Source of the DNA: an uncultured Pelagibacteraceae bacterium
Lineage (GTDB): Bacteria > Pseudomonadota > Alphaproteobacteria > Pelagibacterales > Pelagibacteraceae
DNA: 64,000 nt
NCBI GenBank assembly: GCA_902576045.1
Contig: CACGTU010000001.1
Location: 1 to 64,000 of the forward strand
Reading direction: 5' to 3'
The position numbers and the translations under genes are program-made. The notes beneath the pieces were generated by a model, which was not told the DNA's origin, made no database searches, and saw only the letters and a list, made by a program, of their open reading frames with translations. Below, one piece after another: positions 13,687 through 36,129 of this stretch (its first letter is position 1; each line of letters opens with the position of its first letter).

Positions 13687-14829
13687 TTAACCGTTAAGTA
13701 ATTTTAACGCGTAATCAAGCTGGTTGTCGGTATCAGTATTTATTCTAAAATCATCTGACCCTTCTGCAATTTCAATATCAGGTGTAACACCTACTTGAGA
13801 AATTGATTTTCCAGACGGTAAATAATATTTTGAAACAGTCAGCCTTATCGCTCCATCATTTTTTAAAGGAATAATTGATTGAACAGATCCCTTGCCATAT
13901 GTGCTTTCGCCCACTAATACTGCTCTTTTATGATCTTGAAGTGCGCCCGCAACTATTTCAGATGCGGATGCAGAGCCATAGTTGATAAGAACAATCATTG
14001 TTTCTCCGTTTAAAACGTCCCCTCTCTTTGCGAACCATTTTCTATTTTCAAATTTTCTTTTACTTTTTGTTGAAACTATTTCCCCATTTTCAAGAAAGAA
14101 ATCAGAAATTTTTATAGCTTGAGAAAGCAACCCGCCAGGATTATTTCTTAGATCTAAAATATAATTTTTAACTTTTCCATTTTTTTTAAATTCTTTTATC
14201 TTATCCTCTATCTGATCACTGCTATTTTCATTGAAAGATGTAAGCCTAATATATCCGGTTCTATCGTCAATGATTTCAGATTTAACAGAAGCTACTTTTA
14301 TAATGTCTCTTGTAATAACAAATGTTAATGCCTTTTTCTCACCAACTCGTCTAACAGTTATTTCAATATCAGTTCCAACAGGACCTCTCATTAAATCAAC
14401 AGCCTCCATTAAAGACTTACCTTGAACTTGTATATCATTAATTTTTACAATGTAATCACCTGCCTTAATTCCAACTTTAGAGGCTGGAGAATTATCTATT
14501 GGTGAAATCACTTTTACTACACCTGCCTCCATACCTACTTCGATACCCAAACCTCCAAATTCTCCACTTGTTTCGGTTTGCATATTTTCAAATGAGTCTG
14601 GAGACATATATGCGGAATAAGGATCTAGAGATTGTAACACACCATTTATAGCCGCATCCATTGCATCACTTTGATTTACATCCTCAACATATTCTTTATT
14701 AATTTTATCTAGTACTTCACTGAATAGATCTATTTTTTTATAAATATCATCTTCATTTGCAGATTTTGAAATCGTTGAAAAATTACAAATTAAAATAATT
14801 ATTAGTAAATTTTTAATTTTAAATCTCAT
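13687..14829 (-). CDS. ctpA: S41 family C-terminal processing peptidase
   Basis: Signal peptide, PDZ domain, peptidase motif GSASASEIVAGALQDHKRAVLVGESTYGKGSVQ; ATG 14829 (MRFKIKNLL) preferred start. Confidence 0.92.
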   Translation of the reverse strand: MRFKIKNLLIIILICNFSTISKSANEDDIYKKIDLFSEVLDKINKEYVEDVNQSDAMDAAINGVLQSLDPYSAYMSPDSFENMQTETSGEFGGLGIEVGMEAGVVKVISPIDNSPASKVGIKAGDYIVKINDIQVQGKSLMEAVDLMRGPVGTDIEITVRRVGEKKALTFVITRDIIKVASVKSEIIDDRTGYIRLTSFNENSSDQIEDKIKEFKKNGKVKNYILDLRNNPGGLLSQAIKISDFFLENGEIVSTKSKRKFENRKWFAKRGDVLNGETMIVLINYGSASASEIVAGALQDHKRAVLVGESTYGKGSVQSIIPLKNDGAIRLTVSKYYLPSGKSISQVGVTPDIEIAEGSDDFRINTDTDNQLDYALKLLNG

Positions 14830-15176
14830 ATAATTAATTTCTCTTTGGGTATTAATTCGGACCACATTTTTTCTAATTCGTAAAATTTTCTTTTTTCAGG
14901 ATTAAAAATATGAACAATTAAATCAATTCCATCAACCAACTTCCAATCATTACTTTCTTTACCTTCGATTTTACAATTTTGAATTCCACTTTTCTTAAAT
15001 TTTTCAAAAACTTGCTCTGATAAAGCTTGGATATGTCTCGATGAAGTTCCACTAGCTATAATCATATAATCAGCCATTGATGATTTACCCTCAAGATCAA
15101 TGGAAACTATATCTGTTGCTTTATTAAAATCTAGTGTATCGATTATTTCTTTTTTTAAACTGGAGATTTTATCCAT
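14826..15176 (-). CDS. rsfS: Ribosome silencing factor (RsfS/Iojap)
   Basis: ADYMIIASGTSSRHIQALSE, next to nadD. Confidence 0.92.
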   Translation of the reverse strand: MDKISSLKKEIIDTLDFNKATDIVSIDLEGKSSMADYMIIASGTSSRHIQALSEQVFEKFKKSGIQNCKIEGKESNDWKLVDGIDLIVHIFNPEKRKFYELEKMWSELIPKEKLII

Positions 15177-33200: not shown

Positions 33201-34241
33201 TTAAAATATTTTTGAGAAATTTTTTCTCTCTCTATTTTTCCACTCACCTTTATGGAAAGCATCACTTGCAATTAACGGCAAAACAGTTGTTGCTTCAGCA
33301 AAAACCATTTGTTCTTTTGTTACGTCAACTTTGCCCCATGAACTTGCTTCTTTTAAAGTTGAACTGCTGCAAGCACCATCTCTAGAATCTGCAACTGTAA
33401 TTTGCACAGCATATTTATGCATAGCCACATTTTTTCCAAGCAGTTCAGCACATATGACCGTATCTTGAATAAAATTTTTTGGAACACCTCCACCAATCAT
33501 AAATAAACCCGAACCTTCAGATCTAATTTTTATTTCTGTCAATTCTCTAAACTCTCTTATTGCATCAATGGTTATGTGATTTTTTGGATTTCTTTCTTGA
33601 TGCATTACTAATCCAAAGCCAGCGCTGGAATCTGTAAAAGCAGGGCAAAAAATTGGTACATTATTGTCGTAAGCCATTTCTATTAACGACCCTTTTTTTT
33701 TTGAATTTGTTTTTAGATATTTTCCTATTTCCTGAATAAATTCTCTTGAAGTGTAACTACGAGGCTCTAAAGTATCTGCAATTTCTCCGATAATTCTATC
33801 ACACATTTGAAGTTGATCTTCATCTATGTAGGTATCGTATATTCTATCAATATAATTTTCTCTAAGCTCCATATCATCCTGAAATTGAGAACCTTGATAA
33901 TGTTTAAAGCCCAAAGCCTCAAAAAAATCCATATCAATTATAGAAGCTCCAGTTGCAACTATTGCGTCCACCATATTGTATTTAACCAAATCTCTATACA
34001 CATGCATACATCCTGCTGCAGAGGTAGATCCAGCTAAGGTTAAAAAAATTGTACAATCTTTATCCTTCAGCATTTCATTATAAATATCTGCTGCATTGGC
34101 AGTTTCTCTTGATACAAATGACATTTTTGACATCGAGGATATAATTTCTCTTGCATCGAACTTTGTGATGTCAATGTGCTCAACCTCCTTGCTCAAGAGG
34201 TCTTTTTTTCTATTATGTGATAAGTTTTTGTTTTCTGACAT
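33201..34241 (-). CDS. Deoxyhypusine synthase-like protein (possible homospermidine/spermidine-type synthase)
   Basis: LTLAGSTSAAGCMHVYRDLV, GGGVPKNFIQDT, GACSSSTLKEASSWGKV with the DHS catalytic lysine context. Confidence 0.87.
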   Translation of the reverse strand: MSENKNLSHNRKKDLLSKEVEHIDITKFDAREIISSMSKMSFVSRETANAADIYNEMLKDKDCTIFLTLAGSTSAAGCMHVYRDLVKYNMVDAIVATGASIIDMDFFEALGFKHYQGSQFQDDMELRENYIDRIYDTYIDEDQLQMCDRIIGEIADTLEPRSYTSREFIQEIGKYLKTNSKKKGSLIEMAYDNNVPIFCPAFTDSSAGFGLVMHQERNPKNHITIDAIREFRELTEIKIRSEGSGLFMIGGGVPKNFIQDTVICAELLGKNVAMHKYAVQITVADSRDGACSSSTLKEASSWGKVDVTKEQMVFAEATTVLPLIASDAFHKGEWKNRERKNFSKIF

Positions 34242-35419
34242 TATGCAACAAGAAACTCTTTCATAGTTTCTTTGTTATACATTGTCATAATTGGATCATC
34301 TTCTACTTCAAATATCTGATCAGAATAAAAACCATTAAATTGAGTTCTAAATGTTAAACCATATGCTCCGAGTTGACCTAACTCGATATAATCGTTTTCC
34401 TTAATATTGTTTGGCAATATGAAAGGACCTTTCATATAATCCATACTATCACATGTTGGACCATAAAAATCAAAAGAAGTTAACTTTTTTGATATTACTC
34501 TTCCATTTTTAATTACTCTTGATGGATAAACAATATTAGGTGTTCCTGCATCAAATAAAGTTCCATACGTTCCATCATTGATATACAATTTTTGTTTTTT
34601 TCTTAAGTTTACTCTTACAATTGTAGATCCACTTTCCGCAACAAGCGATCTACCAGGTTCACAAATTATTTCTGGCAGTTTTTGAAGTTTTAAATTTTTT
34701 AAACCTTTCTTTATTTCGTCAAAATAAGATTGCATTGGCTGCGGTACAAGATCTGGATAAATTGTTGGAAATCCACCGCCGACGTTTATTATGTCAGGAA
34801 CAATCTTTGTTCTTTTAATTATATTTCCTATTTCTGAAATTCCTTTTGCATACGAAATTGGATGCATGCATTGAGAGCCTACATGAAAACTTAAACCAAG
34901 TTTGTAAGCATATTGTTTACCAAGCCTTAAAAGACCTGCTGCTTCTGATGTTATAGCTCCAAATTTTTTGGATAAATCAATTTCAGCATGTTCATTTGAA
35001 ACAGAAACTCTTACAAATAATCTTAAGTCTTTCGCGTGATTTGTGCTTTCAATAATTTTTATTAATTCATCTTTTGTATCTAATGCAAAAGTTTTTATAT
35101 TGTACTTAAAATATGCTTCCTTTATATCTTCTCTACTTTTTACGGTATGCATGTAAGAACATTCAACTTCAGGATTTAAATTTTTTATTGTTTCGATCTC
35201 TTTAATTGATGCAACATCGTAGTGCTTTATTCCGCTATCTAATAATGTTTGTAAAACTACTGGATGTGGATTTGTTTTGACAGCGTAAAGGATTTTACCT
35301 GGAAATTTATTTTGAAAGAATTTAGAAGCTAATCTTATAGAATTTCTTCTTATACAATATACCGGTTCTGTTGGTTTCAGTTGGTTTACAAGCTCGTCAA
35401 CTGACTTAAATTTTTGCAT
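34241..35419 (-). CDS. Fold-type III PLP-dependent ornithine/lysine decarboxylase
   Basis: YAVKTNPHPVVLQTL, HVGSQC, EPGRSLVAESG, GPTCDSMD. Confidence 0.9.
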   Translation of the reverse strand: MQKFKSVDELVNQLKPTEPVYCIRRNSIRLASKFFQNKFPGKILYAVKTNPHPVVLQTLLDSGIKHYDVASIKEIETIKNLNPEVECSYMHTVKSREDIKEAYFKYNIKTFALDTKDELIKIIESTNHAKDLRLFVRVSVSNEHAEIDLSKKFGAITSEAAGLLRLGKQYAYKLGLSFHVGSQCMHPISYAKGISEIGNIIKRTKIVPDIINVGGGFPTIYPDLVPQPMQSYFDEIKKGLKNLKLQKLPEIICEPGRSLVAESGSTIVRVNLRKKQKLYINDGTYGTLFDAGTPNIVYPSRVIKNGRVISKKLTSFDFYGPTCDSMDYMKGPFILPNNIKENDYIELGQLGAYGLTFRTQFNGFYSDQIFEVEDDPIMTMYNKETMKEFLVA

Positions 35420-35444
35420 TTAAAGCTCCAAAAAAAAATTTAAC

Positions 35445-35473
35445 AAAAAAAACTCGCATAACTGTTATGCAAG
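35445..35473 (-). terminator. Terminator-like hairpin with U8 in the decarboxylase 5' leader (candidate attenuator)
   Basis: Minus strand CTTGCATAA-CAG-TTATGCGAG then TTTTTTTT; 9-bp stem with one T-G wobble; ends 25 nt upstream of the ATG at 35419. Confidence 0.6.
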
Positions 35474-35565
35474 TTTATATAAAACGAGCATTTATGCTGA
35501 AAATGAGCCAATGTAAAGTAAAAATATATACTTGAAATAATTTAGAATGTTTCCATATAAGGCCC

Positions 35566-36129
35566 ATGGCTGAAGCTGAAATAGTAAAAAAAATAACAGA
35601 ATTTGAGGATAAATCTCTATTAATTGTAGACGATGATAACCCATTCAGAGAAAGACTTGCAAGAGCAATGGAGAAGAAAGGTTTCTCCGTTTCACAAGCT
35701 GAAGGTGTAAAAATTGGAATAGAATCTGTAAAATCCAAAAAGCCAGCCTTTGCAGTTGTAGATTTAAGATTAAATGATGGAAATGGACTTGAGGTTGTTA
35801 AAGAAATTCAAAAAAATAATTCTGAGAGCAGAATAGTAATGCTAACTGGATACGGCAATATTCCAACTGCAGTTGCAGCTATTAAAGAAGGTGCAATTGA
35901 TTATCTTGCAAAACCAGCTGATGCAGATGACGTTGAAAAGGCATTGCTTGCAGATCCTAACAAAAAAGCAGCTCCACCAGAAAATCCAATGTCAGCAGAT
36001 AGAGTAAAATGGGAACATATCCACAGGGTTTTTGAGCTTTGTAATAGAAATGTTTCTGAAACTGCAAGAAGATTGAAAATGCATAGAAGAACTCTGCAAA
36101 GAATTCTCTCTAAAAGATCACCTAGATAA
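35566..36129 (+). CDS. regA: RegA/PrrA/ActR family response regulator
   Basis: Receiver domain (LLIVDDDNPFRERL, VVDLRLNDGNG, MLTGYGNIPTAVAAIKEGAIDYLAKPAD) and Fis-type HTH NVSETARRLKMHRRTLQRIL. Confidence 0.9.
   Translation: MAEAEIVKKITEFEDKSLLIVDDDNPFRERLARAMEKKGFSVSQAEGVKIGIESVKSKKPAFAVVDLRLNDGNGLEVVKEIQKNNSESRIVMLTGYGNIPTAVAAIKEGAIDYLAKPADADDVEKALLADPNKKAAPPENPMSADRVKWEHIHRVFELCNRNVSETARRLKMHRRTLQRILSKRSPR

Follow-up and report, generated by a model that had tools for sequence, protein, structure and literature searches.

The leader of a decarboxylase gene in Pelagibacter contains an RNA hairpin that is almost certainly conserved under selection, and that bears the SAR11 terminator signature at a place where a terminator is unexpected, between promoter and gene. 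It was found in the window, i.e., the whole stretch of 64,000 nucleotides of Pelagibacteraceae DNA that was analyzed. A covarying hairpin is present in the decarboxylase-sense RNA, it has the form of a terminator with a T8 tract flush with the stem, and it is placed between a conserved promoter and the gene. The sequence comparisons put at about an even chance the reading that the leader, with a length of about 60 nt, is a promoter-proximal intrinsic attenuator that works without a leader peptide. The terminator-shaped hairpin would then probably throttle the decarboxylase gene. SAR11 bacteria are among the most abundant on Earth and are thought to have very little gene regulation. If the reading is true, these streamlined genomes would have, in a conserved RNA that controls polyamine synthesis, one of their rare regulated nodes. 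The element is found in nearly every checked Pelagibacter genome that has the decarboxylase, and it is absent from Rfam. The initial annotation had proposed a candidate attenuator at this site; the conserved, terminator-shaped RNA hairpin in the decarboxylase leader stands, while the ribosome-stalling mechanism that went with it does not.

The decarboxylase is a PLP-dependent enzyme whose closest solved structures are lysine/ornithine decarboxylases (Table 1); it has the LysA-family fold, with a score under the LysA cut-off. It was found in 13 of the 14 sampled genera of the family. The model NF002699 matched by the next gene (33201-34241, minus strand) is that of 1,9-bis(guanidino)-5-aza-nonane synthase, a guanidino-polyamine enzyme, and downstream of this gene a PhzF-family gene and an agmatinase-family gene are found. 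The upstream neighbour, earlier noted to be divergent, is a response regulator of the RegA/ActR/PrrA type (35566-36129, plus strand, NF033791), and the same divergence is present at every Pelagibacter locus of the set with sufficient upstream sequence. The 146-bp spacer between the two genes reads as two putative back-to-back promoters plus one leader, because the RegA-type gene has a promoter-like TTGAAA...CATATA of its own. In nearly all relatives this pattern (35530-35566 on the plus strand in the window) lies only a few bases upstream of the ATG, as if the mRNA were leaderless or nearly so.

Table 1. Features of the decarboxylase leader and its surroundings, in positions of the window.
Feature	Position	Strand	Evidence
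Divergent promoter predicted for the RegA-type gene, TTGAAA (35532-35537) ... CATATA (35554-35559), a few bases upstream of its ATG	35532..35559	+	Pattern kept in relatives
TTTACA, -35 box of the promoter predicted for the decarboxylase	35512..35517	-	TTTAC identical in 157 anchored leaders; the other 6 read ATTTACATT
-10-like box TAAATG, 17-nt spacer, includes the ATG of the proposed uORF	35489..35494	-	First three positions T 78%, A 86%, A 84%
Predicted transcription start, 6-8 nt past the -10 box	35481..35483	-	Promoter position
Proposed uORF MLVLYKLA*, judged not functional	35465..35491	-	19/163 leaders; start within -10 box
Hairpin H1, terminator stem of 12 bp, AAACTTGCATAA-CAG-TTATGCGAGTTT	35450..35476	-	dG -11.7; covariation; G-U bias to the minus strand
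T8 directly at the stem, first of the two T tracts	35445..35452	-	T7-T9 in 160/163 leaders; length as in bona fide SAR11 terminator tails
Linker GTTAAA	35439..35444	-	GTTAAA, ATTAAA or GTAAA in 159/163 leaders
Second T tract, T9	35430..35438	-	T7-T9 in 163/163 leaders; ordinary SAR11 terminators lack it
Shine-Dalgarno GGAG	35426..35429	-	Sequence; in the leaders a purine-rich box follows T tract 2
AAAAATTTAA in decarboxylase codons 2-5, complementary to leader TTAAATTTTT, possible RBS-occluding hairpin	35406..35415	-	9-11 bp helix in 179/181 leaders
392-aa enzyme of the lysine/ornithine decarboxylase type, gene putatively controlled	34241..35419	-	phmmer, 2plj, E 1.7e-38
Deoxyhypusine-synthase-like enzyme, next gene after the decarboxylase, 1-base overlap	33201..34241	-	NF002699, 575 bits, cut-off 500

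The core of the hairpin consists of the 9-bp arms CTTGCATAA (35473-35465) and TTATGCGAG (35461-35453) around a CAG loop, and flanking A-U pairs extend the stem to 12 bp. The 9-bp hairpin and the T8 had been described on the minus strand, 25 nt ahead of the decarboxylase ATG (35419), and are present exactly so. To that account are added a second tract, GTTAAA-T9 (35444-35430), which is conserved as strongly as the first, and a conserved predicted promoter with which the start of the uORF overlaps. A set of 163 distinct leaders was assembled from genome searches and fetched stretches, and in every one of them two T tracts flank a linker, nearly always 9-15 nt ahead of the start codon. The linker reads GTTAAA in 77, GTAAA in 45 and ATTAAA in 37, with four variants. 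Further upstream, a -10-like consensus TA(A/T)(A/T)TG follows TTTAC at a spacing of 17 nt across the leaders, and the sister genera and several further Alphaproteobacteria (L242, L244, L246, L251) likewise have CTTTACA at this position ahead of the decarboxylase. TAAATT within T8-RTTAAA-T8 was considered as a second, downstream promoter and is left as no more than a possibility; it has no -35 element, and the transcribed hairpin would be left unexplained.

Of the 163 leaders, 162 are predicted to form a hairpin that directly abuts the first T tract, with a mean z of -3.1 against dinucleotide shuffles; the sole exception is L165 (its leader is the same as that of L276), which carries another genus code, g288. 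There are two main stem types, GCATA..TATGC as in the window and AAAGTTTT..AAAACTTT, and further variants exist. The stem sequence is fully remodelled between clades with the pairing kept. In 64 leaders aligned by MAFFT, with no fitting to the structure, 93.6% of the cells are paired, against 72.5% when shuffled and 38-66% when the partner is slid. Both sides have changed in nine of 11 stem pairs of this alignment, the covariation score is 0.586 against 0.230, and RNAalifold recovers the same stem unaided. The compensatory stem changes that the initial annotation had suggested looking for in relatives are thus there to be seen. It was further found that the stem arms of a leader pair with each other at 9.03 of 10 positions, as compared to 7.43 +/- 0.13 when the 3' arms are swapped between leaders, and 0 of 500 shuffles reached the observed 9.03. 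On a tree of the RegA gene each variable stem column has undergone about 14-31 inferred changes, and the covariation therefore does not reflect one old difference between two clades; a strict independent-pairs test on this tree had few supported pairs to draw on. When read on the decarboxylase-sense strand, the stems contain 69 G-U pairs and five A-C pairs, showing that the selected molecule is the decarboxylase-sense RNA and neither a DNA palindrome nor the opposite transcript.

A scan of 462 kb of the window's genome, the window included, was used for comparison with terminators. Five hairpins with a strength of at least -11.3 kcal/mol are flush with T7-T8; four of these are at 3' ends, 40-60 nt behind genes for an outer-membrane porin, an amino-acid binding protein, a PotD-type binding protein and GroEL (names read from the sequences), while the fifth is the decarboxylase leader. 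The latter ranks fourth among the hairpins flush with a run of at least six T, where the first three are 3'-end terminators, and no other strong hairpin lies in the leader of a gene whose neighbour is divergent. Strong hairpins with T8 are likewise mostly found at 3' ends in the complete genome G012. The aligned true terminators have T7 or T8, nearly always T8, and in none of them is there a second T tract. The SAR11 intrinsic terminators that were identified (L198:14402, L186:10079, L189:12731 and L184:11751, and in G012 L212, L220, L218, L206, L222 and L223) are rare, about one per 100 kb; they are located behind porin, binding-protein and groEL genes and sometimes between a binding protein and its permease. 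The decarboxylase leader shares with the terminators at the 3' ends of porin, potD and groEL genes a stable RNA hairpin followed immediately by a U tract, in this case T8. It differs from them in its position between promoter and gene, in an often weaker stem and in the RTTAAA-T8 that follows.

The proposed attenuation would start with transcription that begins a few nt ahead of the hairpin, from the predicted TTTACA-17-TAAATG promoter, and would give the decarboxylase operon of Pelagibacter a 5' leader RNA of about 60 nt. The hairpin would fold as soon as it is made and could, together with the U8 tract, act as a promoter-proximal intrinsic terminator, with only a fraction of the polymerases reaching the decarboxylase gene. 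Since almost no RNA would lie upstream of the hairpin, there would be no room for a classical antiterminator or a leader peptide. Control, if there is any, would thus act directly on the hairpin or on the polymerase, and candidate inputs are an effect of polyamines or of temperature on the A-U-rich stem, an RNA-binding factor or an elongation factor.

Several observations argue against an attenuator. The stability of the stem has a median of -7.0 kcal/mol at 37 C and -11.4 at 16 C across the leaders, and about half of the clades have an A-U-rich, weak stem, down to about -4 kcal/mol or weaker at 37 C. This is far weaker than the 3'-end terminators; those of G012 range from -12 to -22, while its decarboxylase leader has about -6. 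A weaker stem in many clades does, however, suit a partial or conditional terminator. The second T8 with its RTTAAA is as conserved as the first, and it is not needed for termination. Genus g288 (L165, L276) does not have the hairpin. Finally, most leaders of the sister genera have a counterpart of the hairpin that is almost devoid of a U tail, which suggests that the older function of the hairpin was not termination.

An alternative that we regard as unlikely, albeit one carrying real weight, is that the leader stabilizes the mRNA and enhances its translation. The hairpin would then guard the 5' end, the two U tracts would serve as a landing site for the ribosome and S1 (or an Hfq-type protein), and no termination would take place. 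Such a role agrees with the predicted position of the hairpin at the extreme 5' end, with the U-rich stretch found directly before the Shine-Dalgarno sequence in all leaders, with the weak stems of many clades, and with the retention of a tail-less hairpin in the sister genera. It does not explain the position of the first T tract directly at the stem, nor its length of 8+/-1, both as in true terminators.

The second T tract would be accounted for by control at the level of translation. Here RTTAAA-T8 would pair with codons 2-5 of the decarboxylase (AAAAATTTAA) and enclose both the Shine-Dalgarno sequence and the AUG, thereby replacing the UGUGU/ACACA hairpin found around the Shine-Dalgarno sequence in sister genera. 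The complementarity of 9-11 bp is nearly universal (Table 1), the minimum free energy fold of the window leader contains the helix, and of the codons involved, codon 3 is AAA and codon 4 TTT in 181 of 181 leaders, with codon 5 split between AAA and AAG. However, both sides are invariant in the window's genus, the two sides do not covary in the sister genera, where AAA TTT is also kept, and the mean predicted pairing is only about 31%. We consider this pairing improbable as the explanation of the leader, and it is kept as a rival to attenuation or as an additional layer. It is very improbable that the inverted repeat serves as a DNA operator, of the RegA-type regulator for example; the GCATAA-TTATGC of the window is palindromic and the regulator gene adjoins divergently, but the complete change of sequence between clades with pairing kept, the covariation and the strand-specific G-U pairs lead to its rejection.

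The mechanism first suggested, in which the terminator is melted by a ribosome that stalls on reaching the end of MLVLYKLA, has next to no probability left. The reading frame is present in the window, from an ATG at 35491 to a stop at 35465, and it overlaps the 5' arm of the hairpin. This peptide is, however, encoded in only 19 of the 163 distinct leaders, 41 have no ATG whatsoever in that stretch, and the rest have unrelated frames; the uORF is thus not conserved in relatives, while the hairpin is. No Shine-Dalgarno sequence was found ahead of the MLVLYKLA ATG in the window. Because this ATG coincides with the final three bases of the conserved -10-like box, which follows TTTAC at a spacing of 17 nt, the uORF probably lies upstream of the transcript and would not be transcribed. 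The tiny peptide gene is a coincidence inside the promoter. A second copy of GCATAA does occur upstream (in CAGCATAAATGC), as had been pointed out, but its use as an alternative pairing partner is rejected as not conserved: the copy accompanies only 31 of the 95 ATGC-type stems and is situated in the promoter region, upstream of the predicted start, and no mutually exclusive upstream antiterminator was found. The frequencies of the uORF, of leaders without an ATG and of the GCATA copy together therefore rule against the stalling model.

When the 4227 families of Rfam were searched at their gathering scores, no match was found in the leader. The one gathering match of the window is elsewhere, at 13839-14151 on the plus strand, where Rp_sR47 (Rickettsia sRNA47) scores 64.2 against a gathering score of 60; it is antisense within a CtpA-type protease gene (13687-14865, minus strand) and probably reflects coding conservation rather than an sRNA. 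Weak matches of the leader to trpB and tsr26 are at chance level. The speF element of Alphaproteobacteria (Rfam RF00518) resembles the present case in being the leader of an alphaproteobacterial ornithine decarboxylase. The leader described here differs, as this covariance model has no match at gathering and speF is absent from the weak matches of the leader up to an E of 10. In Enterobacteria, the speFL (orf34-speF) leader of 516 nt contains a translated 34-codon ORF and depends on Rho, with no intrinsic terminator (PMC6386406). The likeness is premature termination, here putative, ahead of an ornithine decarboxylase; the leader is predicted to be only about 60 nt, has a hairpin of the intrinsic type and no conserved uORF, and the 146-bp intergenic region contains no 34-codon leader ORF. 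For the spermidine riboswitch, a variant of the SAM riboswitch (PMC10853860), no SAM-family Rfam match was found in the leader, whose predicted length is about 60 nt. A conserved single hairpin that in about half of the cases is followed by a U6-9 tract has been reported for rhtB and livK in SAR11 (Meyer et al., 2009, PMC2704228). It belongs to other genes and is bulged, with a well-conserved sequence, and that survey of SAR11 structured RNAs does not mention the decarboxylase, though it discusses this other hairpin with U tracts.

The closest parallel is the odc1 motif (uORF-25-1) of other Alphaproteobacteria, which has tandem starts two bases apart, an upstream frame of 11 codons and the ribosome binding site in a stem (PMC8632094). 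As in SAR11, it is found in the leader of the orthologous decarboxylase. The leaders of the SAR11 sister genera have in common with it the spacing of two bases between the starts, an 11-codon ORF that runs out of frame from the first of them, and a Shine-Dalgarno sequence in a stem by the start codons. The length of the 11-codon frame is largely imposed by the decarboxylase coding sequence. Genera g281 and g283 have the hairpin followed by UGUGU...SD...ACACA, which apart from isolated bases is invariant in 27 leaders. A second start codon five bases before the main one is present in 28 of 29 leaders of g283, seven of seven of g32, 13 of 16 of g282, four of four of g285 and five of 16 of g281, and L240, L242 and L250 read TTG-AA-TTG with 11-codon frames. 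That the 11-codon frame at this site encodes a conserved peptide was rejected; the stop is kept even where the start is lost, and coding constraint explains the frame. The SAR11 leaders look like relatives or analogues of odc1, homology across such AT-rich leaders being a putative step. In the window's genus, g1, only 26 of 181 leaders have the tandem start. The window itself reads TTT-AA-ATG and has no two starts two nt apart, and its hairpin is upstream of the ribosome binding site, which is not in the right shoulder of a P1 stem as in odc1, where there is also a pseudoknot between the loop and the 5' end. The window and most of g1 have no Shine-Dalgarno stem and instead have the hairpin with its U8 tail, RTTAAA and the second U8. 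The leader is accordingly a new form of the leader-terminator type and not a member of odc1, speF or speFL.

The Shine-Dalgarno hairpin and tandem starts of the sister genera, as opposed to the U8 tail of Pelagibacter, suggest that the expression platform may have changed. In Pelagibacter proper the Shine-Dalgarno stem appears to have been replaced by the U tracts, with g289 and g292 in between. These genera would form a natural series of intermediates, along which the leader seems to shift from translational to transcriptional control. It may be speculated, as a rather unlikely extension of this, that an odc1-like translational leader in the sister genera was rebuilt: in Pelagibacter the hairpin would have gained U8, lost the Shine-Dalgarno stem and become a minimal sensor-terminator of about 60 nt, the stem itself sensing polyamine or temperature without aptamer, antiterminator or peptide, and g289 and g292 would be the intermediate-looking forms.

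Two further interactions were considered in the sister genera. Pairing of the H1 loop with the start of the coding region shows no covariation (own 12.29, swapped 12.37). A triple helix between the U tracts and an A tract was considered for g32 and g283, but in g283 the order of the strands speaks against it. The leaders of g32 (L226, L227, L253-L257) read U8-AGGGGA-U7-CATG-A8 flanked by GTTG/CGAC, so that two competing U:A pairings are possible, and they have upstream frames of 18 codons from the tandem ATG. In genus g284 (L270-L272, L279) the decarboxylase differs from the rest of the family in that it apparently starts with TTG, within a conserved ACATAACAAGAATTG context, while another member of the genus, L280, has ATG-AA-ATG and a different hairpin.
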